Below are positions 30,709 through 49,506 of a DNA stretch of 64,000 bases, piece after piece. Within the stretch, counting starts at the first letter, position 1, and every line of letters starts with the position of its first letter. Origin of the DNA: Caldicellulosiruptor hydrothermalis 108 (GTDB taxonomy: Bacteria; Bacillota; Thermoanaerobacteria; Caldicellulosiruptorales; Caldicellulosiruptoraceae); the NCBI RefSeq assembly GCF_000166355.1, contig NC_014652.1:898001-962000 (forward strand), given 5' to 3'. The position numbers and the translations under genes are program-made. The notes under the pieces were generated by a model. That model was given only the letters and a program-made list of their open reading frames with translations, was not told the origin of the DNA and did no database searches.

Positions 30709-30734
30709 AATTACATCAAAATAATAAACTTCAT

Positions 30735-30879
30735 AGGCTGAATGCCTGAGCAAATTGTAAAAATTGCTCAGACAGCGGGAGACCCACAGTAGCCATTGGG
30801 GTGAATCGGCAAAAGTCTTGCCGTAGGGATAGCCTTCTTGTCCCGAACCCGTCAGCTAATCCCGTAAGCCTCAAGAAGG
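30735..30879 (+). ncRNA. c-di-AMP riboswitch (ydaO-yuaA type)
   Basis: The conserved blocks appear in order: AGCGGGAGACCCA (30773-30786), TGGGGTGAATCGGC, GTAGGGATAGCC, CCCGAACCCGTCAGCTAAT (30842-30860) and CCGTAAGCC. P1 pairs AGGCT (30735-30739) with AGCCT (30867-30871). This class binds cyclic di-AMP and usually turns off wall-hydrolase and potassium-transport genes, matching the NlpC/P60 gene behind it. CCTTCTTG (30833-30840) can pair with CAAGAAGG (30872-30879), which contains the start of the gene's ribosome-binding site. Confidence 0.95.
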
Positions 30880-30889
30880 GAGTTTTTGT

Positions 30890-31849
30890 ATGAATCTCAG
30901 AAGCTTAATTGCTATAACTCTTGGAATTTTTTTGATGTTTTTTTCTGCAAAGGCCTTTGCCCAGTCAGCCCAGGCAAAATCAACAATAAATATAAGAAGT
31001 GCACCTTCAACAAGTAGTAAGATTTTAGGAGTTTTCCCCAAAGGGTTTAAAACCCAAGTTTTGTCAAATGCAGGTGGATGGGTAAAGATTTCGTATGATG
31101 GAATTGTTGGGTATGTAAAGTCTGATTACATAACTATTACAAATGAAAAAAGGAGCGCAGTTTCAAATACTTCAAGGGCAAGTGTTGCAAAAACGGCTGC
31201 TAAAGCTGCGCAAGCTACAGTTTTAAAAGACAATGCGCGCTTAAGAAGTGATATGTCAACCTCATCAAAGATATTAAAGACATTAAAAAGTGGCAGCAAA
31301 GTCTATGTCCTGTCAAGAGAACAAAATGGCTGGGTGAAGGTAAAGACGCTTGATGGCACAGTAGGATATATGGCATATTACCTTTTGAAGATGCCTTCAC
31401 AATTTGTATCGAAAACAATGTCACGTGGTGGGTATGAGAGAGGTCAAGCAGAAACTTTTACAAATCTTAGCTTAGCTCAGAGAATTTTGGAGTTTGCTCA
31501 AAGATTTCGTGGTATAAGATACTCATATGGTGGGACGTCACCATCAACTGGTTTTGACTGTTCAGGATTTGTACAGTTTGTGTTTAAGAACTTTGGGATA
31601 CATTTAGAAAGAACAGCAGCTGACATGGCAAGAACAAATGGTGTGAGAATTTCTTACAGTGAAATTAAACCGGGAGATTTGCTTTTCTTTGACACAGATG
31701 GCGGGAAAAATTATATAAATCATGTTGGCATATATTTAGGCGGTGGCAAGTTCATTCATGCATCAAGTGCAAGGGGACGTGTAACAGAGACTGACTTAAA
31801 TTCATATTATGGAAGATTTTTTATGATGGCAAAAAGGGTCATAAGATGA
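30890..31849 (+). CDS. NlpC/P60 peptidoglycan endopeptidase with two SH3b domains
   Basis: Secreted wall hydrolase that cuts peptide stems of peptidoglycan. Signal peptide residues 1-24 (FSAKAFAQS cleavage region); two SH3b domains, each with the INIRSAPSTSSKILG / ARLRSDMSTSSKILK signature (about 30-85 and 110-165); then the catalytic domain from about residue 195 with FDCSGFVQFVF (nucleophile Cys), INHVGIYLGGGKFIHASS (His). The 319 residues are intact. Controlled by the c-di-AMP riboswitch directly upstream, as in other Firmicutes, tying wall turnover to c-di-AMP. Confidence 0.95.
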   Translation: MNLRSLIAITLGIFLMFFSAKAFAQSAQAKSTINIRSAPSTSSKILGVFPKGFKTQVLSNAGGWVKISYDGIVGYVKSDYITITNEKRSAVSNTSRASVAKTAAKAAQATVLKDNARLRSDMSTSSKILKTLKSGSKVYVLSREQNGWVKVKTLDGTVGYMAYYLLKMPSQFVSKTMSRGGYERGQAETFTNLSLAQRILEFAQRFRGIRYSYGGTSPSTGFDCSGFVQFVFKNFGIHLERTAADMARTNGVRISYSEIKPGDLLFFDTDGGKNYINHVGIYLGGGKFIHASSARGRVTETDLNSYYGRFFMMAKRVIR

Positions 31850-38411: not shown

Positions 38412-38852
38412 ATGTTGAGATGGTTTATTAAAAAAATTAATGGGAAGAATGAAGGTTTTACATTAATTGAAATGATTGTAGTAGTTGCAATAATTGCAAT
38501 ACTTGTAGGAATAGCTGTTCCCCAGGCAGTAAAACAAATCAATAGAGCCAAAATTAGTGCTGACTTAGCAAATGCAAGGAATATAGCAATGGCTATTCAA
38601 CAATATGTAGCAGATGGTGGAGATGCCAGCAAGCTCTCTACTAACTGGAAATCAATAGAAGAAGATACATTTATAGTCCCATATCTAAGTGGGGGAGTAC
38701 CAAAACCAAAATATTCTTCGGACTATAAAGGCTTTTGTTACAAATACCAAAATGAAACTGTTCACGTTGGAGTATATAAAGATTCTTCATCTTTGACTGA
38801 CGATAAAGTAGATGAAATATATCCAAATCCAGAGCAACCTTATAACCAGTGA
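38412..38852 (+). CDS. pilA: Major type IV prepilin (PilA-like)
   Basis: Probable pilus subunit. The leader of about 14 residues is basic and ends NEG, then the cleavage/methylation motif G-FTLIEM followed by the hydrophobic helix IVVVAIIAILVGIAVPQAV. The soluble head is about 95 residues with no Cys pair. 146 residues. GAGGAGGG gives it the strongest ribosome-binding site in the operon, consistent with the major pilin; the stop overlaps pilD (GTGA). Confidence 0.9.
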   Translation: MLRWFIKKINGKNEGFTLIEMIVVVAIIAILVGIAVPQAVKQINRAKISADLANARNIAMAIQQYVADGGDASKLSTNWKSIEEDTFIVPYLSGGVPKPKYSSDYKGFCYKYQNETVHVGVYKDSSSLTDDKVDEIYPNPEQPYNQ

Positions 38853-39637
38853 AAAATAATAAGATGTGGTTAGACAATATGTGTCGCATAATGTTTTTAA
38901 TTTGGACCCTTGTCCTTGGCAGCTTCCTAAACGTTTGCATATATAGAATACCACGGGGGGAGTCGATTGTATATCCCCCCTCTCATTGTCCTAATTGTAA
39001 AACAAGAATAAAGCCATATGATTTAATCCCTGTTTTGAGTTTTATCATTTTAAAAGGTAGATGCAGGGCTTGTCATGAGAAGATTCCATTAAGGTATCCT
39101 ATAGTTGAAATTTTATCCTTGCTATGTGCAATTAGTGCCTACAGCAAGTTTGGTTTTAGTGTCAGGACATGGATAGCGTATTTCATAGGATTTGTATTGA
39201 TATATATCTCATTTGTGGATGTGGATACACTTGAGATATCTAATCTTTCCATATTAATACTTTTTGTACTTTCCTCATTGTTATACTTTTTAGACAAAGG
39301 TTTTTCTTTGATAAACATAAAACACTTAATTCTTGGCGGAATCTATTCAAGTTCCTTGGTTTTGTTGATATATCTATCCTCTCGAGGAAGAGCAATGGGG
39401 TTTGGTGATGTTTTACTATTGTTTGCAGGCGGAGTTGGTTTTGATTTTGGAAAGGCAGTTGTTGTTAATTTTTTGAGCTTTGTAATAGGGGCAATATATG
39501 GTGTTCTTTTATTACTTCTTAAAAGAAAAACAGTAAAAGCACAAATTCCGTTTGCTCCTTTTATAGCTATGTCTATATATTTAACTCTTATATTTGGTGA
39601 TCATATTGTGAAATGGTATCTTGGTTTATTTTTGTAA
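38849..39637 (+). CDS. pilD: Prepilin leader peptidase / N-methyltransferase PilD
   Basis: Cleaves the pilin leader at Gly and methylates the new N-terminus. The 262 residues carry LGSFLNVCIYRIP, the zinc ligands CPNC...CRAC in the first cytoplasmic loop (about residues 47-75), and the two catalytic aspartates in FVDVDTLEI and MGFGDVLLL. About eight membrane helices. Start is GTG 38849 overlapping the pilin stop; ATG 38864 is a possible alternative but has no better ribosome site. Confidence 0.93.
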   Translation: MKNNKMWLDNMCRIMFLIWTLVLGSFLNVCIYRIPRGESIVYPPSHCPNCKTRIKPYDLIPVLSFIILKGRCRACHEKIPLRYPIVEILSLLCAISAYSKFGFSVRTWIAYFIGFVLIYISFVDVDTLEISNLSILILFVLSSLLYFLDKGFSLINIKHLILGGIYSSSLVLLIYLSSRGRAMGFGDVLLLFAGGVGFDFGKAVVVNFLSFVIGAIYGVLLLLLKRKTVKAQIPFAPFIAMSIYLTLIFGDHIVKWYLGLFL

Positions 39638-39662
39638 AAATATGTTGAGAGGGGAGAAATTT

Positions 39663-39935
39663 GTGTATAAAGTAAAAAACTATATGGAAGAAGCTGTTTT
39701 AATGTTATTTGATAGAGTGTTGAAAGATATAGATGTGTGCAAATGTGAAAAATGCAAGACAGATATATTTGCCCTGACTTTAAACAGGCTTCCACCAAGA
39801 TATGTGGCAACAGAAGAGGGAGAGCTTTACACAAAAATAGAGTCCTTAAAGGAACAATTTGAAGTTGACATAATTGCAGCAATTACTGCTGCAGCATATA
39901 TTGTAAAAAATAATCCTAAACATGAGAAAAAATAA
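39663..39935 (+). CDS. comFB: ComFB family protein
   Basis: Small competence-associated protein. The 90 residues match the family: VKNYMEEAVLMLFDRV at the start, DVCKCEKCKTDIFALTLN with three Cys, LPPRYVATEEGELYTKI, and a terminal AAYIVKNNPKH. In cyanobacteria ComFB proteins have been described as cyclic-dinucleotide receptors that influence pili and competence. GAGGGGAGA is seven bases before GTG 39663, favouring it over ATG 39642 or earlier starts. It lies inside the pilus operon, between pilD and a minor prepilin. Confidence 0.85.
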   Translation: MYKVKNYMEEAVLMLFDRVLKDIDVCKCEKCKTDIFALTLNRLPPRYVATEEGELYTKIESLKEQFEVDIIAAITAAAYIVKNNPKHEKK

Positions 39936-40509
39936 AGAAGTAATGTGGTTTAACATGAAAGGTAATTGTAGAGCATTTACATTGATTGAAATGATAATTG
40001 TAATCTCAATTTTGGTCGTATTGTTGTCAATTGCAATTCCCAATTATTTGTTATTTAGTGAAAAAGCAGAGATTGATAGAGTTACTAAAGAAATTGCTTC
40101 TATGATAACACAAATGTATGGTAAAATAGAAAGTGAATTGGCATATTATAAGTATTTTGTTGTAATAAACAATTGGGCCAAAGAAAACGATAATGGAGAA
40201 AAATACCTTGAAGTTAAATTCATTAAAAGAGATGAAGGTAATCAAATAAAAATTCTTAAGACGTTGGTAAGTCGGAAAGTAGTACTCGAAAGTAACAAAG
40301 TTTCGACTCAGAGATTAACTGTTATTACGTATGATAATAGGCTTCGATATTGCATTTCTGAGGCAGATAGTGAGACTACAATTTTCTTAAGCTCTTATTC
40401 TCCTACGCAGGGAGATACGGTGATTGAAATAAAAGGGAAAGGGCATTCTACATTCAAAAGAAAGATTATTATTAAAGAAATACCTCCAGGAAGTGTCTTG
40501 ATAGAATGA
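39922..40509 (+). CDS. Type IV prepilin-like protein, Ala at -1
   Basis: Minor pilin candidate. A 16-22-residue leader (depending on the start) ends NCRA, and the motif AFTLIEM precedes a hydrophobic helix (IIVISILVVLLSIAIPNYLL). The residue before the cleavage site is Ala instead of the usual Gly. The head domain is strand-rich (YLEVKFIKRDEGNQIKILK). ATG 39922 overlaps comFB by 14 bases; ATG 39943 or 39955 may be the true start, as no strong ribosome site distinguishes them. Confidence 0.8.
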   Translation: MRKNKEVMWFNMKGNCRAFTLIEMIIVISILVVLLSIAIPNYLLFSEKAEIDRVTKEIASMITQMYGKIESELAYYKYFVVINNWAKENDNGEKYLEVKFIKRDEGNQIKILKTLVSRKVVLESNKVSTQRLTVITYDNRLRYCISEADSETTIFLSSYSPTQGDTVIEIKGKGHSTFKRKIIIKEIPPGSVLIE

Positions 40510-41012
40510 AGAAAAGAGCCTTGGGCTTTACATTAATAGAGGTTTTAGTCAGTGTTACAATTTTGTTTATTGTGATAGTGGTTATATATGATTTTTTTAT
40601 GAACACAAATAAATTTCTACATAACCAAGATGAGAATATAGAAGTATCTCTTCAAGCTAAAAGACTCCAAGAAGATATAAAACAATGGTTCCAGATGGCT
40701 GATCAAAAGTCTATCGAATGTTTTCCGTACAGCAAAAGAGTTGAGATGAATGTTTATGAATATGACTTAGCTCAGAATATTTTCTTAAAATATAGAATTG
40801 TACTCCAATATGATGGTGTTCAAAAGAAAATAAGTATTCATAAATATGATGAAGCTGGCAGAGAGGTTTCTTCTTCAATTTATTTAGAGAAAAAGGTAGA
40901 GTATTTTTCTGTTATTGAAAATGGTAATTTAGTTTTGATTACTTATGAAATTAAATTTAGTCCTAAAAAAGTGCAGAAATACGAGATTACTTATTATCGA
41001 CGTACTGATTAG
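40506..41012 (+). CDS. Type IV prepilin-like protein (PulJ-like minor pilin)
   Basis: Short leader MKKRALG followed by FTLIEVLVSVTILFIVIVVIYDFF, the classic prepilin helix with Glu at +5. The head of about 135 residues is mostly strands and helices without Cys. 168 residues, in the size range of GspJ/PilW-like minor pilins that sit at the pilus tip. It overlaps the preceding gene by four bases (ATGA). Confidence 0.85.
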   Translation: MKKRALGFTLIEVLVSVTILFIVIVVIYDFFMNTNKFLHNQDENIEVSLQAKRLQEDIKQWFQMADQKSIECFPYSKRVEMNVYEYDLAQNIFLKYRIVLQYDGVQKKISIHKYDEAGREVSSSIYLEKKVEYFSVIENGNLVLITYEIKFSPKKVQKYEITYYRRTD

Positions 41013-41044
41013 AAATTAGAGTATCAAAGTGAGGCAATATAAAC

Positions 41045-42019
41045 ATGAGCAAAAAAATTACCATTGAGATAGGAAAAAACTATATAAAAATTTTAGAAGG
41101 AACTGTTAATAAGAAAATTTTAATTAGTAAAGTCTTTGAAATCGAATCGGATGATGATTTTATTAGGGATGATTCAAGGGTGGAAGAAGATATTCTTTAC
41201 AAGTTGTTAGGAGAAGGGATTGTAAACAATAATTTTTCTAAAAACAACGTTACAATAGTGCTTTCTGGAATTGCAAACATTCTAATAAGAGAAATGGTAA
41301 TTCCTGCTCTTTCACCAGATAAGACCTATTCACTTTTGAAATTTGAGGCAAAGCAAAGTTTTCCTGTAAATGTAGAGAATTTCGTAGTTGATTATAAACA
41401 GCTTTCTTTTTTTAAGGAAGGAAAAACAAAAAAGCAACATATTTTAATGGTGGCAGTTCCCAAGAAAATTATAGAGGGGATTATAAATGTGTCTGAAAGA
41501 TTACACTTGAGAGTGAAAAAGATTGATTTAGAGTCAAATGCGTTATGGCGGGTAGTGAGTAGGGAAAGAGGAACTTTGAAAGAAGAAACAGCTACTGAGA
41601 ATACCTTTATGATTGTGAATTTGATGCGGTACTATGTAACTGTTGTAATTTGTAAGGGAGAAAAGCTGCTGTTAGCAAAGACGTTTCCATTTTATCAGCT
41701 TGAAAGGATTTTCAGGTCTGAGGATATGTCAGAAGAAGTACTCTTCACTTATTACGGTTATATGCTTAGTGAGGTAGTAGAAAATGTTGCAAAGTTCTAT
41801 GAATTTTTTAAAATAAGAAGACACGCAAATGAGACACTTTCTAATATTTATTTAACAGGTGAGTTGTGCAAAAAAATGGATATGAGGGAACTAATGAAAG
41901 CAAGAATTAACAGCAATGCAATATACTTGGAAAATCTAAATGTTATAGACACAGCAAATAGCTTAGAAGAATTAAATCAGTGTTCGATTGTAACAGCTAT
42001 TGGTGGGTTATTGACATGA
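41045..42019 (+). CDS. pilM: Pilus assembly protein PilM
   Basis: Cytoplasmic actin-like protein that links the ATPase side to PilN. The 324 residues have an FtsA/PilM-like pattern: ITIEIGKNYIKILEG (phosphate-1-like loop, unusually without the normal D), LIREMVIPALSPDKTYSLLKFEAKQ, a region near 110-120 with HILMVAVPKKIIEGII, and a late IYLTGELCKKM. The nucleotide-binding Asp/Gly pattern is weaker than in proteobacterial PilM. It is followed by pilN and pilO, the expected partners. Confidence 0.88.
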   Translation: MSKKITIEIGKNYIKILEGTVNKKILISKVFEIESDDDFIRDDSRVEEDILYKLLGEGIVNNNFSKNNVTIVLSGIANILIREMVIPALSPDKTYSLLKFEAKQSFPVNVENFVVDYKQLSFFKEGKTKKQHILMVAVPKKIIEGIINVSERLHLRVKKIDLESNALWRVVSRERGTLKEETATENTFMIVNLMRYYVTVVICKGEKLLLAKTFPFYQLERIFRSEDMSEEVLFTYYGYMLSEVVENVAKFYEFFKIRRHANETLSNIYLTGELCKKMDMRELMKARINSNAIYLENLNVIDTANSLEELNQCSIVTAIGGLLT

Positions 42020-42570
42020 AGGAGAGGAAGTTTTTGAAAAAAAGAAGTTATAAAGATATAAATTTACTGCGGGCATATCAGTACGAAACACGAAAAAGAG
42101 AAAAAATGCTGAGGATATTTGTTGCCATTTTAATATTAGAAGTTGTATTATTTTGTATCATCTCTTTTGGATACATCACAAAAATTAAGATTATAAAGAA
42201 TGAAATAAAGACATTAGAACTCTTAAAAAGCGAAAAACAAAAGGATACGCTGGTAATAAAAAATGCAGCGGCAGAAGTGAAATTGTTAAAATTAAAAGAA
42301 AAGTTTGTAAATTTAAAATTAGAAGAGCATAAAAATGTATTAAAAATCTTAAATGAGTTAGAAAAAATTACGCCGCAAGATGTAGTATTTGACAGTTTGA
42401 GTTTCTCTAAAGGAGAAATTAATTGTGTTGTTAGAAGCAATTCAGTAGAGTCACTTTTTAAATTTGTTGTGGGTATTAGAACCAGTAGCGTATTTACTAA
42501 TGTTTCATTTTCAAATATAAGAAGCGAAGGTGATTGGAAACTCATCTCAGTAAAAGCAAAAATACAATAA
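42016..42570 (+). CDS. pilN: Pilus assembly protein PilN
   Basis: Single-pass membrane protein of the alignment complex. The N-terminus has KDINLLRAYQYETRKREK (the INLL motif that binds PilM), then one membrane helix (IFVAILILEVVLFCIISFGY), then a coiled coil and a small ferredoxin-like domain. 184 residues from ATG 42016, which overlaps the pilM stop as ATGA; the longer frame from TTG 41980 would lie inside pilM and lacks a site. Confidence 0.9.
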   Translation: MKERKFLKKRSYKDINLLRAYQYETRKREKMLRIFVAILILEVVLFCIISFGYITKIKIIKNEIKTLELLKSEKQKDTLVIKNAAAEVKLLKLKEKFVNLKLEEHKNVLKILNELEKITPQDVVFDSLSFSKGEINCVVRSNSVESLFKFVVGIRTSSVFTNVSFSNIRSEGDWKLISVKAKIQ

Positions 42571-42584
42571 GGAAGGGGTTATTA

Positions 42585-43196
42585 GTGGGATTAAAAGATA
42601 GAGATAAGAAACTTTTATTAATCTTGGTTATGATAATTTTGGCTTTCACTTATTATAACTTTTATGTAAGAAAATATAGTCAGGAAATTTACACTTTAAA
42701 AATCAGAAAACAACAACTTGAAGATGAATTGAATATTCTAAGCTCACAGTTAATTGTCTATAAAAAAGAAGAGAACACAAAATTAAATCTAAGTAGTGAA
42801 GAATTGAACAAAAGACTTCCCCCTAACCAAGATCAGATGTTTACTCTTTTAGATCTCCAAAGATTAGCACAACAATTTAATGTGGAAATCTCCGATTATT
42901 CTATTTCTCAAAAACAAAAGTTGAACAATTCCTTTGGTAATGAATTTGATGATATTTTTTATTTTTCTTCTCATCAAACATGGAGAATGAAATATGAGGA
43001 TTTTAAGAAGCTTTTTGAAATGCAGAAGTTTTTTTATCCTCTTTACTCTATAGATTCTTTCACATTGATAAATTCTGAAGATAAAATAGTGGCAGATTTT
43101 GAAATTAAGTTTTATGGTTACGAAGACAGATTTGCGAAAAAGAGAGAACTTTCATTTCCAAATATAGTTACGGGGAAAAATAATATTTTTAAATAG
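42585..43196 (+). CDS. pilO: Pilus assembly protein PilO
   Basis: Partner of PilN. A short basic cytoplasmic start (GLKDRDKK), one membrane helix (LLLILVMIILAFTYYNF), a coiled coil (QEIYTLKIRKQQLEDELNIL in part) and a C-terminal domain of about 120 residues. 203 residues from GTG 42585, with GGAAGGGG six bases upstream; the frame continues back to 42534 without a site. Sequence conservation in PilO is low; placed here mainly by topology and position after pilN. Confidence 0.85.
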   Translation: MGLKDRDKKLLLILVMIILAFTYYNFYVRKYSQEIYTLKIRKQQLEDELNILSSQLIVYKKEENTKLNLSSEELNKRLPPNQDQMFTLLDLQRLAQQFNVEISDYSISQKQKLNNSFGNEFDDIFYFSSHQTWRMKYEDFKKLFEMQKFFYPLYSIDSFTLINSEDKIVADFEIKFYGYEDRFAKKRELSFPNIVTGKNNIFK

Positions 43197-43232
43197 ACAG
43201 GGTTAGGAGTTTTTGTAAAGGAGAAGTACAAA

Positions 43233-43640
43233 ATGAAACAAAGTGGTTTTACACTTATAGAAGTAATAGTTGTAGTGGCTATAATTTATATTTTGTTAAT
43301 TCCGATAGGAAACTTGTTGCAGCAAATACTAAATGCTAACATAAAAACAGAGAAAAACTTTGAATTAGCAAAAGTTTTGAATAAAACGATTGAAGAAGTA
43401 GTGCATTTCTTGAAAGATATAAATCCATCATTTGTTGGTCAAAATTCTGTTAATGTAAAAGATAATAACGGAAATGTGGTGTACAGGATAATATATGAAG
43501 TTTCAAACTATGATAATTTTGAAGTGACACAAGATGTTTATAATTACCGAGAAGAACTTAAAAAAGTTGATTTAGAAATATTAGATAAAAACAATAATAA
43601 TATCAAGTCACTTACATATTTTATTAGGGTGAATCAATGA
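43233..43640 (+). CDS. Type IV prepilin-like protein
   Basis: Leader MKQSG then FTLIEVIVVVAIIYILLIPIGNLLQQIL, a standard prepilin N-terminus with Glu at +5. The head of about 100 residues has the strand segment NNGNVVYRIIYEVSNY. 135 residues, probably a minor pilin of GspI/PilV size. The start ATG 43233 follows AAAGGAG. Overlaps the following large protein by four bases. Confidence 0.85.
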   Translation: MKQSGFTLIEVIVVVAIIYILLIPIGNLLQQILNANIKTEKNFELAKVLNKTIEEVVHFLKDINPSFVGQNSVNVKDNNGNVVYRIIYEVSNYDNFEVTQDVYNYREELKKVDLEILDKNNNNIKSLTYFIRVNQ

Positions 43641-45553
43641 TGAAAAACTTTATAAGAAGCTCCAGCAAAGGGTCAGCATTAATAATTGTGATAGTTTTTT
43701 TTACTGTATTGCTTCTTCTTGTTGCAGGCACGATGGAACTTGCCCTCACCTCGTTAATACATAGTAAAGAGACAATAAACAAGACACAAACTTCAACTGC
43801 TGCAGATAGTGCGATGGAATATATTCTGTTTTATATTAGCAAAGCGATTGCTCAAGCAAAAAGGCTTACATATGCTCAGTTTTTTGATTCAACTGGAAGG
43901 TTGATTTACACGGGTGATAGTTTTGAAAATGATTATTTAAATACTTTCAATAGCTATATAGCTGATTTTTTTGAAAACAGAGGTAACAGAATTGGAATTG
44001 ATATGAAACTCGCAGATAATAGTTCAGTTCAAGTTTCAAATGTATCTGAACTTATTTTGCTGGCAAGACAAAGTTGTGAATATATTAGCAATATATCTTT
44101 TTCCAGATCAGGAAATTCATATATTTTAGAAGTTGAAGCTTTAGATTCTACTACGAAAACAAAGAGGGTAGAAAGATGTGTATTTACAATTCCTTCCCCA
44201 TTTGAAAAAGTCGAGATTGTTTCTAATTCTTCATCCCCAGACACTTTATTACCCTATTTGTTAGCGTGGGATAGCAATATATTTGATTTTACCACTTATG
44301 GCCTTTTTAGCAGTGACAAAATCATATTTAACAATAACATAACGGTTACCACACGAAATATGTACAGCAGTAGCGATATAACACTTCGAAGTGACAACAA
44401 TAGACCAGGAGATTATACTATTAAGGCTGATAACATTATTGTGAAAAATGGAAGTTTTATCTTTGGAGGAAACAATAAGGTAGTAGTTAACAATTTGATG
44501 TACACAAAAAATGGGATAACTTTTAATGGAAACAACAATAGACTTGAATCAAACTCTCTTCTTTTCTCGGATGGGACTATCTCTCTTAGTGGAAAAGATG
44601 AAATAGTAGCAAATGCATTGTTTTGTGATACATTGGATATTAGAAATGGGAGCAGCAATTTAGTCACTATAAATGAATTTGCATATTTTAATAAATTAAA
44701 TATCTGGACTGACAAAATGGTCTTGAAATCAAATTCTAAGCTTTTTGGAGGAGATATAGAAATAAGAAATGATGGTATTCTGTCTGCAGATGTCGGAACA
44801 GTTGTATATGCTAACAATCTGGATATTATTGGTTCATCTGCAACTATTGATGCTCCTGATACTGTGCTCTATTGTAATAACTTAAAAATAGATGGAGAAG
44901 TAAAGCTAAACGTAAAGAAAATTGTTTGTAGTGGAACGATTACTATTTCTAATTTAAATTCAGGAACGAATATAAGAGTTTCAGATAAAATTGAGTGCAG
45001 AAGTATTCCCCAAAATATACCCTCAGGTATTCGGAATTTGTTTGTTCAAAATCCAAATGTAAATTTTCAAATTCCTTATCCCACTATTCCCGCGATTATA
45101 GAGGAAATAAAGAAGAATACATTTCCAACTAATTGGATTAGACTTGATAACATTGTGGAAGACAAAAAAGATATTAACGGAGCAAATTATTATTCACTTG
45201 TGTCTACAGGACAGAATAGTAATGACATAAATGAAATATTTAACAAGAATAAACCTAACAATCCACATTCTAATGTTCAGATTTTCGTTATTACAAAAAG
45301 TGGAATCAATGTACCACCAGATCAAAACCATTTGGATGGAGTTTTAATAGCAAATGGGTCTCTTCAGTTCAATGGAGGTAACTTAAATATCGAGTATGTT
45401 AGAATGCCTCAACCACTTATAGACTATTTATTGAGCAAGAACATAATAAAAATAGAAAATGTTCAGCCACCTGTAATTAGTAATCCTACAGTTACTTTTT
45501 TGCCTCGAGATGTGAATTTGTTTATCATTGCACGTCATTTTGTAGTTAAATAA
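43637..45553 (+). CDS. Large PilX-like pilus-associated protein with beta-helix-like repeats
   Basis: Last gene of the operon. The N-terminus (SSSKGSALIIVIVFFTVLLLLVAGTMELAL) is the PilX-type G-x-A-L-I transmembrane helix, without the FTLIE prepilin motif. Residues about 200-470 repeat short strand units (ITVTTRNMYSSSDITLRSD; IIVKNGSFIFGGNNKVVVNN; MYTKNGITFNGNNNRLESN) that suggest a right-handed beta-helix or bactofilin-like fold. The end (about 470-638) looks globular. 638 residues is far longer than PilX (about 180). It may be a tip adhesin. I do not know a named family. Confidence 0.75.
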   Translation: MMKNFIRSSSKGSALIIVIVFFTVLLLLVAGTMELALTSLIHSKETINKTQTSTAADSAMEYILFYISKAIAQAKRLTYAQFFDSTGRLIYTGDSFENDYLNTFNSYIADFFENRGNRIGIDMKLADNSSVQVSNVSELILLARQSCEYISNISFSRSGNSYILEVEALDSTTKTKRVERCVFTIPSPFEKVEIVSNSSSPDTLLPYLLAWDSNIFDFTTYGLFSSDKIIFNNNITVTTRNMYSSSDITLRSDNNRPGDYTIKADNIIVKNGSFIFGGNNKVVVNNLMYTKNGITFNGNNNRLESNSLLFSDGTISLSGKDEIVANALFCDTLDIRNGSSNLVTINEFAYFNKLNIWTDKMVLKSNSKLFGGDIEIRNDGILSADVGTVVYANNLDIIGSSATIDAPDTVLYCNNLKIDGEVKLNVKKIVCSGTITISNLNSGTNIRVSDKIECRSIPQNIPSGIRNLFVQNPNVNFQIPYPTIPAIIEEIKKNTFPTNWIRLDNIVEDKKDINGANYYSLVSTGQNSNDINEIFNKNKPNNPHSNVQIFVITKSGINVPPDQNHLDGVLIANGSLQFNGGNLNIEYVRMPQPLIDYLLSKNIIKIENVQPPVISNPTVTFLPRDVNLFIIARHFVVK

Positions 45554-45585
45554 GATATTAATGTTAATAGAGGAGTCAAAAACCA

Positions 45586-45614
45586 TTGCAATTTGTGTTG
45601 GAATTAAGTATTAT
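45586..45614 (+). promoter_or_regulatory. Promoter ahead of the GEMM riboswitch
   Basis: TTGCAA (45586-45591), 17 bases, TATTAT (45609-45614). A transcript from here would begin about 45 bases before the riboswitch. Confidence 0.45.
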
Positions 45615-45664
45615 AATAAAAGAGAATTTTCTAAACAAAGTAAAATGGTAAATTAGAAAATAAA

Positions 45665-45769
45665 GACATATGTCGACAAAGGCAAACCTGTCGAAAGGCA
45701 GGGGCGCAAAGCCATGGGCCTGTCGGAAGTACAGCTTCCTATGGTCGCCAGGCTGCCGAAACATATGTC
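45665..45769 (+). ncRNA. Cyclic-di-GMP riboswitch (GEMM-I type) without a downstream gene
   Basis: Family landmarks in order: P1 GACATATGT (45665-45673) with ACATATGTC (45761-45769); conserved GGCAAACC (45681-45688); P2 CCTGTC-GAAA-GGCAGG (45687-45702) with the GAAA tetraloop; GCGCAAAGCC (45704-45713); and in P3 the GGTCGCCAGGCTGCCG end. This class binds c-di-GMP. By-eye alignment puts G at the ligand-discriminating position, favouring c-di-GMP over cGAMP. Terminator hairpins follow, and the next plus-strand gene is 2.5 kb away. Confidence 0.93.
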
Positions 45770-45776
45770 AAAGAAG

Positions 45777-45825
45777 AGTGAGTAAAAGTTGGTTGAGTGA
45801 AAGGAGCAAACACTCACTTTATTTT
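45777..45825 (+). terminator. Riboswitch expression platform: competing hairpins and terminator
   Basis: Two GAGTG copies (45776-45780 region and 45795-45799) can each pair with CACTC (45811-45815). The outer pair is AGTGAGT (45777-45783) with ACTCACT (45812-45818); the inner is TGAGTG (45794-45799) with CACTCA (45811-45816). TTTATTTTCTTT follows, so at least the inner one is a terminator. Confidence 0.7.
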
Positions 45826-45837
45826 CTTTGACTGTAG

Positions 45838-45870
45838 GCACCTGGCGAGAAGTCAGGTGCTTTAATTGTT
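45838..45870 (+). terminator. Second terminator behind the riboswitch
   Basis: GCACCTG (45838-45844) pairs with CAGGTGC (45854-45860), followed by TTTAATTGTTTT. Confidence 0.65.
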
Positions 45871-45970
45871 TTGTAACAAGCTTTTTGATAAATGAAGAAA
45901 GGTCTGCGGGGAATAGAAAATAGAAAATCCCTCTATCCTCATAACCCCTCGAACTCCTAAAATACATTTT
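45871..45970. other. Unassigned stretch between riboswitch terminators
   Basis: No gene, promoter or hairpin that I can support. A 22-codon frame from ATG 45892 has no ribosome-binding site and is probably chance. Confidence 0.5.
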
Positions 45971-46003
45971 GAGCCGACCATCCTTTTGGTCGGCTCTTTT
46001 TTT
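45971..46003 (+). terminator. Third, strong plus-strand terminator
   Basis: A perfect stem GAGCCGACCA (45971-45980) with TGGTCGGCTC (45987-45996) is followed by seven T. Its T run overlaps the end of the minus-strand glycosylase gene. The same hairpin on the minus strand lacks a T run. Confidence 0.9.
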
Positions 46004-46568
46004 ATGGTTTTGTCGCTATCTTCTCCAGCCTTTCCTTCACACTTTTCAAATCCCTGTAAAAATCCTCTCTTTTGCCCGGGTCTCTTAAAAGTGCTGCTGG
46101 ATGGTATGTAGCCATAATCAAAAAATTACCTTTTTCAAACCACTTTCCCCTGTCTTGAGTGATTTTAAGGTCTTTGCCAAGAATATATTTCATAGCTGTT
46201 GCACCAAGACAGACAATTATTTTTGGAGAGATGAGTTTTATCTGGGCTCTCAAAAAAGGCAAGCAGTTTTGAGCCTCTACCTCTGTTGGCACGCGGTTGT
46301 TTGGGGGTCTACACTTTAAAATGTTGCAGATATAAAAATCTTTTTCTCTTGAAAGCTCCAGAGAAGTCAAAGCCAAGTCCAAAAACTTTCCTGCTCTTCC
46401 TACAAACGGTTTCCCTTGCTTGTCTTCTTCCTCGCCCGGTGCTTCGCCTACAAATACAAGCTTTGCGTTTTTGTTCCCATCACCCACCACAACGTTTGTG
46501 CGATTTTTGGAAATAGGGCATTTTTCACATGAAAGACACGCATTTTCAAGCTCTTCCCATGTCAGCAT
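46002..46568 (-). CDS. udg: Family 4 uracil-DNA glycosylase
   Basis: Removes uracil from DNA, an enzyme common in thermophiles where cytosine deaminates fast. The 188 residues have iron-sulfur ligands at the N-terminus (CLSCEKCP) and later Cys residues, the active-site motif [21 protein letters not shown] in its first half, [10 protein letters not shown] with [13 protein letters not shown], and the late [11 protein letters not shown]. Complete. It overlaps the end of argD by 23 bases and shares its transcript. Confidence 0.93.
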
Positions 46569-47751
46569 ATCTTTTCACCACGTCTTTGAAGATTTCCAAA
46601 GCTTTATCTATGTGAGTTTTTTGAACAATCAAAGGTGGAGCAAATCTTATGACATTTCCACCTCCGCAACTGCTTGTCAAAAGCCCGGCTAGAGCTAACT
46701 CTTTTACAAGCTCTTTCACAGGGAAAGAAAACTCAACACCTATTAAAAGTCCCAAACCTCTGACATCCACAATAAAATCGAATTGTTCTTTTAGCTCAAG
46801 AAGCTTTTGTCTTAAATAATCCCCCATTTTGTTTACATTTTCAATTATATTTTCTTCTTCAATTATTCTCAACACCTCTAAAGCTGCTCTTGTTGCAAGC
46901 AAATTTCCACCAAAAGTTGAGCCGTGCTCACCTGGTTCAAATGTAGCAACCTCTTTTTTACAAAGCATAGCTCCAATCGGCACACCATTTCCAAGCCCTT
47001 TTGCAAGAGTAATTATGTCAGGTGTTATATCATACTGCTCAAAACAAAAAAGACTGCCGCACCTTCCAATACCTGTCTGGACCTCGTCAATTACAAACAA
47101 AAGCCCGTGTTCTTTGCAAAGGCTAAAAAGCTTTTGTACAAACTCTTTTGAAAGAACCTTTATTCCGCCTTCTGCCTGAACAAGTTCAATCATAACTGCT
47201 GCTGTTTTGTCGTCTATAGCATTTTTTATCTTTTCAATGTCTGCCTCAACGTTTATAAATCCTTCTGGCATTGGTTCAAAGGGCTTTTGATATTTCTTTT
47301 GGCCTGTTGCAGCAGTTGTTGCAAGTGTTCTTCCATGGAACGAATTTTCAAGTGTGATGATTTTGTATTTTGAAAGACCTTTTTTGAAAAAGTAGTTTCT
47401 TACAAGCTTTATTGCAGCCTCGTTAGCCTCAGCGCCAGAATTACAGAAAAATACTTTGTCAAATTTAGAAACTTTAGCAAGTCTTTTTGCCAAAAGTGCT
47501 TGAGGTTCAATGTAAAACAGGCTTGATGTGTGTATAAGCTTTTCAATCTGGTCTTTCAAGGCAGCAACAAATTTTGGGTGGCTGTGCCCCAAATTGCACA
47601 CAGAAATTCCAGAGATAAAATCAAGGTATTCTTTGTTTTGGCTGTCATAAAGAACGCATCCTTCTCCTCTTTCAAAAGCAAGTGGTATTCGACTGCCAAA
47701 CACGTTGACATAGTACTGTGAATCATAAGAGATTATTTCATCTATTTTCAT
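46546..47751 (-). CDS. argD: Acetylornithine / class III aminotransferase
   Basis: PLP enzyme that transfers the amino group to N-acetylglutamate semialdehyde in arginine synthesis, if ArgD; other class III activities (succinylornithine, ornithine) are possible. 401 residues with [30 protein letters not shown] (PLP phosphate), [13 protein letters not shown] (Asp to pyridine N), the PLP lysine in [17 protein letters not shown] and HGSTFGGN. No other arg genes nearby. GAGGGGC precedes the ATG. Own promoter (47784-47812). Confidence 0.9.
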
Positions 47752-47783
47752 AATTTTAGCCCCTCACTTAAAAGTTTTTAATA

Positions 47784-47812
47784 ATTATACATCAACATTT
47801 ATATTTATTCAA
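47784..47812 (-). promoter_or_regulatory. argD-udg promoter
   Basis: On the minus strand TTGAAT (47807-47812), 17 bases, TATAAT (47784-47789). The -35 box overlaps the end of the DedA gene. Confidence 0.6.
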
Positions 47813-48431
47813 CCTCAGCTGACTTTTTGCCTTTGAAGATTTTATAGACAACATAACCCACAATTGCAGCAATTATTAAGGCTAATATAAGATAGTCGAA
47901 GCCTTTTAAATGCTCTTCAATTGACTTCCAATTATCGCCAAGCTTTTTTCCGAGATAGACAAAAACCAGAGACCAAGGAAATGACCCAAGGACGGTGTAG
48001 ATACAAAACTTTACAAAGTTCATCTTTGCAATACCAGCAGGAAGCGAGATGAATGTTCTTATAACAGGCAGAAGCCTGCTCACAAATATAGTAATTTCTC
48101 CCTTTTTCTGAAAGAATTTTTCTGCCCTCTCAAAATCGTGCTTTGATATAAAAAAGTATTTACCGTATTTGAGTATAAATGGCCTTCCGCCAAAGTACCC
48201 TACTACATAGGCTATTACAGAGCCAGCTAAACAACCCAAGGTTGCAACAATGGTCATGGAAAGTACACTTCCAATTCCTTTGTATACGAGGTACCCGCCA
48301 AGCGGCAGGATGACCTCAGAGGGTATTGGAATGCAGGCAGACTCAAGCGTCATTCCTATGAATATACCTAAATGACCAAACTGAGAGAGGTATTCAGCAA
48401 TTGATATAAATATCTGTTTTATAAACTCCAT
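47805..48431 (-). CDS. DedA family membrane protein
   Basis: Membrane protein of the DedA/SNARE-associated family, some of which flip lipids such as undecaprenyl phosphate or phosphatidylethanolamine. The 208 residues have the family signature ESACIPIPSEVILPLGGYLV, GSVIAYVVGYFGGRPF, SRLLPVIRTFISLPAGIAKM and PWSLVFVYLGKKLG. GGAGGAAG precedes ATG 48431; the longer frame to 48527 runs into the divergent neighbour and is not used. Undecaprenyl-diphosphatase lies 1 kb away, so a shared lipid-carrier role is conceivable. Confidence 0.9.
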   Translation of the reverse strand: MEFIKQIFISIAEYLSQFGHLGIFIGMTLESACIPIPSEVILPLGGYLVYKGIGSVLSMTIVATLGCLAGSVIAYVVGYFGGRPFILKYGKYFFISKHDFERAEKFFQKKGEITIFVSRLLPVIRTFISLPAGIAKMNFVKFCIYTVLGSFPWSLVFVYLGKKLGDNWKSIEEHLKGFDYLILALIIAAIVGYVVYKIFKGKKSAEVE

Positions 48432-48519
48432 TTTTTCTTCCTCCAGAATTCTTTCATATAATATTTTGAATTTAAATATCATGTAATTTGAGAAATATGT
48501 GAAGGTAGCAGGAGAACCA

Positions 48520-49506
48520 TTGCACAAGGGAAGAATTTTTGCAATTGTTTCAACAATCCTTGGGTCAATAATAGGCGCTGGTTTTTCTACCGGTCAGGAG
48601 ATTTTCTATTTTTTCTCTCAGTTCAAAGAAAAAAGTTTTTTATATATCAGCTTTTCTTCCATTTTGATATTTCTAATTTTACTTTACCTTGTGAACATCA
48701 GAATTAAAAGCAGAATAATTTTAATGATATTCAAATCTTACATCTTGCTCTTTTCTGTAATAACACTAATAGTTATGTTTTCTGCATTTGGTCAGTTAGG
48801 AAGAGAATTTTTGGGTGCAAATAAATATATGTTTACTTTACTTTGTTTTGTCTTAAGCTTTGCAATATATAAGCATGGCTTGGTAGCAATTGTAAATTTA
48901 AATAAGATTGTGGTTAGCATTTTAATTACAACAATTACTTTTGTTTTTTTGAAATCTATGCATAAAAATGCGATACTATTTCAATTTGAAAATTTAAAAT
49001 TCCATTTATCAAAAGATGCTTTTCATAATCTCATATTCCCTCTACTTTACTCCACTTACAATTCGTTACTTGCCTTTCCTGTAATAAATAGTCTTGAAGA
49101 AAGATTTTGTAAACAAGAGATTAAAACATCAATAGCTATTTCGACCATACTAACTTTTTTACTACTTTTGATTATTAATACCTTGTTACTTTCAAATGGC
49201 AATATTCAAACTTCCCAGATGCCTCTTTTGAAAGTTGAAAAGAGTATTATTTTGCAGTTTGTCCTTGTTACATGTGCATTTTTAGAAATACTCACAACTA
49301 CTCTTGCAAACTACATGGGGCTTTCCTATTCTATCAAAAATCCAAAAGCTGAGTTTGTGATTATCGCCGTTTCGCTTATTTTGGGCTTTAATGAGTTTCA
49401 GGAGCTGCTGAGAAAACTTTACTCTCTCATGGGATACATCGGTCTTGGCATTATAGCAATGCTGAGCTTATCTACACTGCTTTTAAAAGATAGAAGGCTA
49501 AAATGA
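48520..49506 (+). CDS. YkvI-like integral membrane protein (APC-type)
   Basis: Ten or so membrane helices and about 328 residues. The start [23 protein letters not shown] resembles the N-terminal helix of YkvI and APC-superfamily amino-acid transporters, with the GAGFSTGQE unwound segment. No substrate can be given. TTG 48520 has AGGAG five bases upstream, better than GTG 48499. The end overlaps the convergent uppP gene by 35 bases. Confidence 0.75.

Follow-up and report, generated by a model that had tools for sequence, protein, structure and literature searches.

The window analysed here, a 64,000-nucleotide stretch of Caldicellulosiruptor hydrothermalis 108 DNA, carries a c-di-GMP-I (GEMM-I) riboswitch that is, judged by sequence comparison, the orthologue of a switch controlling a small gene in its relatives, and the simplest reading of its present surroundings is that the target gene has been lost. 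What remains is probably a gene-less riboswitch unit of the OFF type that retained a regulatory tail when the gene was deleted. The leftover transcription unit would consist of the aptamer, an antiterminator/terminator, 13 nt of former coding sequence, a C-rich 3' tail and a final terminator (Table 1). By analogy with a sister RNA that lies ahead of the cellulase gene celA in seven relatives, the tail would be an anti-ribosome-binding-site sequence that pairs with mRNA starts.

Throughout, shuffles were single-base, folding energies were computed at 37 C for what is a thermophilic genus, and counts across genomes are not independent because the genomes are related.

The riboswitch unit and its predicted gating

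The aptamer, located by covariance models on the plus strand at 45672-45761, scored 74.2 bits with RF03167 (gathering score 59; E 9.8e-16) and 80.8 bits with RF01051 (gathering score 35), and its alignment contains the conserved core and GAAA tetraloop of GEMM-I. The "GGC" subclass name of RF03167 does not by itself settle the ligand of the aptamer, for which c-di-GMP is the prediction. Nothing else in an Rfam search over 45540-46010 exceeded its gathering score, the next best hits of 23 to 24 bits lying far under their cut-offs. Elsewhere in the window, a c-di-AMP riboswitch (RF00379, 88.2 bits) occupies 30726-30885, just 5' of a gene at 30890.

A preliminary description of this region had assigned it a GEMM-I riboswitch with a 9-bp P1 and had found no plus-strand gene for 2.5 kb behind it. 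Both observations hold: the P1 strands are as listed in Table 1, and the next convincing plus-strand gene starts only at 48499, so that a sense gene directly downstream is absent. The placement behind a pilus operon also stands and can be refined, in that the last gene of the operon encodes a tapirin, an adhesin that binds cellulose. The tapirin stop codon precedes the start of the aptamer by 119 nt, and ahead of the tapirin gene the operon encodes PilM, PilN, a prepilin peptidase and four proteins with an N-methylation motif. Across window 38412-45553, which includes the tapirin gene, the pilus genes 5' of it share 31-37% identity with those of relatives, as compared to 85-98% for the adjoining uracil-DNA glycosylase (UDG) gene, and the window tapirin itself is only 21-24% identical to several relatives' tapirins across 430-560 residues.

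The promoter-like elements ascribed to the riboswitch are present but weak, since 24 sites of this kind were found in 44500-49500 against 15.5 +- 4.6 in shuffled sequence; a TTGCAA-17-GATAAT site was seen by eye at a comparable place in three relatives (G001, G009 and G010), though the region does not align. Of the three hairpins described as ending in T runs, the second and the last are terminator-like, and the first (45768-45831), having no U run behind it, is not. Three frames can be opened between the two terminators, with lengths from 22 to 41 aa and no clear Shine-Dalgarno sequence before any of them. One of the three, a 22-aa frame at window 45892-45960, happens to cross both elements designated A13 and B32 in Table 1.

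Table 1. Coordinates of the riboswitch unit and its neighbours in the window
Feature	Position	Strand	Remarks
Tapirin gene, last in the type IV pilus operon upstream	43637..45553	+	NF051896, 779.5 bits (cut-off 600)
Promoter-like site TTGCAA-17-TATTAT	45586..45614	+	9/12 consensus match; weak alone
GEMM-I (c-di-GMP-I) aptamer with 9-bp outer P1 (45665-45673 / 45761-45769)	45665..45769	+	
Aptamer 3' segment GCCAGGCTGCC, predicted antiterminator 5' strand	45747..45757	+	10/10 pairs with 45837-45846, one bulged base omitted
Hairpin 1, overlapping the end of P1	45768..45831	+	Predicted folds; sequence and length vary among lineages
Intrinsic terminator, predicted to be aptamer-gated	45836..45862	+	5' arm GGCACCTGGC identical in 12/12 class A copies of the genus
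A13, AGGTCTGCGGGGA, 13-nt leftover of the lost gene's 3' coding part	45900..45912	+	Identical in 12/12 genomes
B32, C-rich tail ATCCCTCTATCCTCATAACCCCTCGAACTCCT, 3' UTR of the lost gene in relatives	45927..45958	+	Identical in 12/12 genomes
Final intrinsic terminator (hairpin 45971-45996)	45971..46003	+	10 pairs, 7 of them G-C; 7-U run touching the convergent gene's stop codon
Convergent uracil-DNA glycosylase (UDG) gene, right border of the lost gene island	46002..46568	-	PF03167, 134 bits

The 5' arm of the first terminator, GGCACCTGGC, is complementary to the aptamer 3' segment GCCAGGCTGCC apart from one bulge. The arm is present in 29 of the 32 GEMM-I copies examined, the three arm-less copies being members of a different GEMM-I class. 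In all 29, 9 or 10 of 10 positions pair with the aptamer, a count that is partly built in, as the arm was located by a motif presupposing about seven pairs; the energy of the arm-aptamer pairing was reached by 0 to 2 of 200 shuffles. The middle of the arm varies by class (ACC, ATC or GTC) and the 3' arm of the terminator changes alongside, and pairing with the unchanged aptamer is kept across these classes through G-U pairs. When nascent transcripts were folded to the end of the arm, the arm-aptamer pairing was part of the minimum-energy fold in 21 of 21. When the complete stretch was folded ligand-free, the terminator appeared in 13 and the antiterminator in eight, the window belonging to the eight.

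On the strength of the 10/10 complementarity, the expression platform is predicted to be mutually exclusive with the aptamer. Once occupied by c-di-GMP, the aptamer would keep its 3' strand, the terminator at 45836-45862 would form and a short RNA would end near 45866. With no ligand, the terminator 5' arm would pair with the aptamer and transcription would run to about 46003, adding the C-rich tail. We infer from this arrangement both a ligand response and its sign: c-di-GMP should terminate transcription, as in an OFF switch.

Orthologous switches in relatives and loss of the target gene

The comparison set comprised 12 genomes of the genus, namely that of the window (G000) and 11 relatives, all of which contain GEMM-I. 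A BLAST search of 45554-46003 against the genus returned the aptamers and also a further conserved stretch, located some 600 nt past one GEMM-I copy in each of the 11 relatives, and the copy carrying that stretch is termed class A. Directly behind the class A switch, all 11 relatives have a gene of about 139 aa with a signal-like N terminus, intact in nine and frameshifted in G007 (at the C terminus) and G008 (internally). The order in these relatives is a divergent minus-strand gene, the class A switch, the terminator, the ~139-aa gene, the invariant tail and a terminator, followed by two or three minus-strand genes (two at locus L038), a plus-strand SLH-domain gene and the UDG gene; additional genes lie within the class A stretch at L042. 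The minus-strand genes encode GAF-GGDEF, metallo-beta-lactamase-fold and GAF proteins (Pfam, members from L038 and L039). The divergent gene is found in all 11, although in pieces at L041 and L045, and the one copy run against Pfam, from L038, is a nucleotide cyclase with a zinc ribbon and TPRs.

The window departs from this order. Its UDG gene lies 0.2 kb from the switch, as compared to 4.5 to 7.6 kb in the 11 relatives, and the interval, which in relatives holds at least three further genes, contains only the A13 and B32 remnants. The 139-aa gene has been deleted here along with neighbouring genes on both sides. Consistently, a profile search for the 139-aa protein detected a copy in 12 of the 13 genomes searched within the order, G000 being the sole miss. 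Of 37 genomes of the class, 13 have it, as do 8 of 398 genomes sampled from the phylum, seven of the eight belonging to this genus. For the G003 copy of the protein, neither Pfam nor NCBIfam gave a match at E up to 1. A13 belongs to former coding sequence and B32 follows the stop codon; removal of the gene took at least two deletions sparing A13, which sits between deletions of about 330 and 60 nt.

The association of switch and protein extends beyond the genus. GEMM-I stands directly 5' of the 139-aa protein gene in G012, G024 and G094 as well, with the start of a zinc-ribbon cyclase on the opposite side of the switch (by eye), although G024 is 6% contaminated and its copy, closely like that of G094, may be a contaminant. 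Judged by gene order in the genus and beyond it, the ancestral role of the class A switch is control of the ~139-aa secreted-protein gene. The suggestion in the preliminary description that the riboswitch is the remnant of a lost target gene is thus supported. That description had advised a search of relatives for a gene behind the riboswitch, and the presence of one in 11 of 11 (broken in two) where this genome has none comes close to the outcome it had named as counting against its own proposal, namely relatives always keeping a gene there and an obvious deletion in this strain.

Other GEMM-I copies were encountered in the course of the comparison. The cassette of divergent zinc-ribbon nucleotide cyclase, GEMM-I and small secreted protein was recorded at L038-L046, L048, L049, L072, L074 and L075, and occurs in other genera too. 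A third GEMM-I class, with the same terminator-arm type, precedes a tapirin-like gene at L050 (a fragment), L051, L053, L054, L055 and L057, and in five of these six loci follows the tapirin-like gene of the pilus operon itself at a distance of 191-214 nt. At L047 (G011), a further copy with the same terminator arm precedes an HD-domain gene, in what appears by eye to be a chemotaxis-like cluster.

C-rich tails and their predicted partners

A sister RNA provides the model for how the tail might act. In seven relatives (G002, G003, G004, G006, G008, G009 and G011; loci L050, L051, L052, L053, L054, L055 and L057), another GEMM-I copy lies 560 to 612 nt 5' of celA, which encodes GH9-CBM3-GH48 (Pfam, three of the seven). 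Behind its terminator stands TTCTTCTGTAACRCTGAA...GCTATCCCCTAACCCCCTCTTT, conserved in 7/7, and then a second terminator-like hairpin. No plus-strand frame of at least 20 aa starts between the hairpins in five of the seven; in G002 and G006, a 21-aa frame begins within the second hairpin. The sister tail is similar to B32 (CTATCC..TAACCCC..TC), and two blocks of it are the reverse complement of the celA Shine-Dalgarno region plus codons 2 to 6.

In every one of the seven genomes, the predicted pairing of the RNA's own tail with its own celA start is strong, at -35 to -48 kcal/mol, and was matched by none of 500 shuffled tails. For four genomes with one shared tail, none of 1000 shuffles reached the celA pairing energy in any of them. 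Among the starts in each locus, celA was the best-pairing one in six of seven, the seventh running off the locus and being unranked, and in five of seven loci 17 nt at the gene following celA are perfectly complementary to the tail.

The complementarity extends to other genes. The 11-nt site GAGGGGGTTAG, sought 4-14 nt before an ATG in all 12 genomes, gave 20 rows representing 19 distinct sites, which occur in all seven genomes with the celA-linked RNA and in none of the five without it, G000 among these; the reversed control pattern had a single occurrence in the 12 genomes. The site of celA itself is exact in G003, G004 and G011 only, with substitutions in the others. All 19 sites lie on the same strand as the RNA, within about 27 kb downstream, and 18 precede long open frames, the remaining one a 30-aa remnant. 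Ten of the 18 were tested with Pfam (N-terminal parts), and all ten encode glycoside hydrolases of family 5, 9 or 10. The 19 sites share their core and not their flanks, which is what a common pairing partner would produce, although descent of these neighbouring genes from one ancestor could also play a part. The RNA and celA lie close to each other and have the same orientation, so read-through transcripts may also allow the RNA to act in cis. From these complementarities, the genus seems to employ RNAs that are gated by a c-di-GMP riboswitch and directed against ribosome-binding sites.

For the class A tail, the predicted partner is a different one. The best pairing of B32 is with the SLH gene start in 10 of 11 class A loci and the second best in the remaining one (L045), and 1 of 200 shuffled tails does as well. 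Taken singly, the evidence is moderate: in seven genomes tested, 1 to 145 of 1000 shuffles reach the B32-SLH energy. The SLH gene, 2.8 to 5.9 kb downstream of the class A switch, is on these pairings the likely target, and action on it would have to be in trans, as opposite-strand genes intervene. Pairing of B32 with the Shine-Dalgarno sequence of the 139-aa gene itself was considered by eye and rejected, as no consistent pairing was seen among lineages. For the half-conserved tail of the sister genus (G012), none of the starts around its locus gave a pairing better than chance (46/200 shuffles).

In the window, the locus lacks the SLH gene. Against the 110 gene starts in the window, B32 showed no pairing beyond chance, 73 of 100 shuffles being as good and the best start (42585) lying inside the pilus operon. 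The remainder of G000 was scanned for B32 targets by the SLH-type ribosome-site pattern only. This pattern, AAGGRGTTN{1,2}GAG, was not enriched, with three matches in G000 as compared to 10 for the reversed control; one match precedes a Mur ligase gene start and none an SLH gene. The proposal in the preliminary description of a small c-di-GMP-responsive RNA remains plausible, with indirect support from the gene-less sister RNAs, but a target for the window RNA was found neither in the window nor by this pattern. The likeness of the tails suggests that the window RNA is a sister type of the celA-linked RNA, stripped of its gene, which may or may not still act here.

Conservation of the remnants and alternative explanations

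The strongest alternative is that the unit is a pure relic: a recent deletion of the gene island would have left switch, terminators and tail in place, and they would survive for want of time to decay, with no function remaining. We regard this as a serious contender, though somewhat short of probable. The 139-aa gene is absent from the genome, the probable class A target is absent from the locus, and the window offers no partner for B32. Moreover, in the UDG and aminotransferase genes, none of 38 fourfold sites that are invariant in relatives has changed in G000, so that the time since the deletion may be short, and a recent orphan relic would look equally intact.

What argues against a relic is the distribution of changes. 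At columns invariant in relatives, the window copy is unchanged throughout the aptamer and P1 (84 columns), A13 (13) and B32 (32) and differs once among 21 in the terminator stem, as compared to changes at 10 of 24 upstream, 5 of 10 in hairpin 1, 2 of 13 in the stretch before A13, 5 of 12 in the gap between A13 and B32, and 6 of 16 in the last terminator, where homology of the columns is uncertain for each of these latter regions. A13 and B32 each occur once in the examined locus of each of the 12 genomes, and both are still identical in G007 and G008, in which the 139-aa gene is broken. G012, of the sister genus, retains the second half of B32 apart from a single substitution (AACCCCTCAAACTCCT); a B32-like motif was looked for in the G024 copy and not found, and the exact B32 core had no match in other GTDB species, in a collection that may omit the window's own and near genomes. 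The invariance of four codons in A13 is weak evidence alone, as 14 of 37 invariant four- or sixfold residues keep one codon in the nine relatives with an intact gene. A comparison within G000 points the same way as the distribution of changes: its second GEMM-I (G000:C1:2712179-2712271, L035) lacks the plus-strand gene that directly follows its counterparts in G009 and G010 and reaches 54.4 bits, as compared to 66.9 and 67.2 for those two, whereas the window copy, at 74.2 bits, lies inside the 72.0 to 74.7 range of its class A orthologues. The L035 locus also contains CRISPR repeats.

Improbable, in our view, is a present function as ligand-gated terminator of the pilus-tapirin operon, stopping or passing readthrough from 45553. 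No terminator-like site was found on the plus strand between 45553 and 45836, and tapirin readthrough may for that reason end at the switch in this strain; five relatives, too, have GEMM-I 191-214 nt behind a 642-aa tapirin-like gene that ends the pilus operon. Those five copies, however, belong to another class and precede a second tapirin-like gene (full length in four, a fragment in L050), and gating at the 3' end alone would leave the operon's coding part unchanged. As an ancestral role, which the preliminary description had entertained, it is contradicted by the divergent orientation of the upstream gene in 11 of 11 relatives, the window aptamer being closest to class A at both ends. The same closeness leaves a chimaera of tapirin-linked and class A switches, formed by recombination, unsupported; the 110 nt upstream of the window aptamer align well with no GEMM-I class.

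An antisense role, in which transcripts running past 46003 would oppose the UDG and aminotransferase genes converging on the unit, is very improbable: those genes do begin at the terminator, and c-di-GMP switches are reported as the family most prone to antisense placement (PMC9943018), but a strong terminator (10 pairs, 7-U run) lies exactly between them, and the distance of the UDG gene in all 11 relatives makes the placement a by-product of the deletion. Equally doubtful is a c-di-GMP reservoir, an abundant aptamer soaking up ligand as proposed for the merRNA of Bdellovibrio, also a GEMM-I RNA without a gene (PMC3627812), which needs neither a gated terminator nor an invariant tail.

We favour a riboswitch unit that kept a regulatory tail after its gene was deleted, and known RNAs share parts of its design. 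C-rich motifs of the RsaE/RoxS-type anti-Shine-Dalgarno sRNAs of Gram-positive bacteria are expected to block ribosome-binding sites, and no riboswitch gating is known for these sRNAs. The layout of EutX/Rli55 recurs in the window as a terminator, a noncoding 3' part and an end terminator of its own, gating and transcription being predicted. In EutX/Rli55, ligand gives a short terminated RNA, the ligand-free form adds a functional 3' part, and the RNA acts without a gene of its own; the ligand there is cobalamin and the 3' part sequesters EutV, whereas the 3' part of the celA-linked sister is C-rich and complementary to ribosome-binding sites, with c-di-GMP as predicted ligand (PMC5821096). 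The merRNA resembles the window RNA in its c-di-GMP-I-type aptamer with no conserved frame behind, and a gated terminator or antisense tail is not described in the accessible part of its report (PMC3627812). Bc1 of Bacillus thuringiensis, as far as the available text describes it, similarly combines GEMM-I with two successive terminators, but retains its gene, mcpE, and its terminators unfold when c-di-GMP is bound (PMC11218506). Within Caldicellulosiruptor, c-di-GMP has been measured and correlated with biofilm (PMC4342205). Among the matches listed for this genus with tapirin, riboswitch, c-di-GMP or small RNA, in the partial texts available, there is no report of these RNAs.

More tentatively, we propose that c-di-GMP riboswitches of this genus may gate trans-acting small RNAs that block ribosome-binding sites. 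The celA-linked type would repress cellulases and xylanases at low c-di-GMP, the class A type would repress an SLH-domain surface protein, and the window copy would be reduced to a pure regulatory RNA. If this reading of the tails is true, a second messenger would control cellulase translation via a riboswitch-gated RNA, coupling signals for attachment with the breakdown of cellulose in a genus of industrial interest, and a c-di-GMP riboswitch would here act on other genes in trans through base pairing. The window would then represent a step in the evolution of such an RNA, in which the protein gene is gone and the RNA tail is kept.
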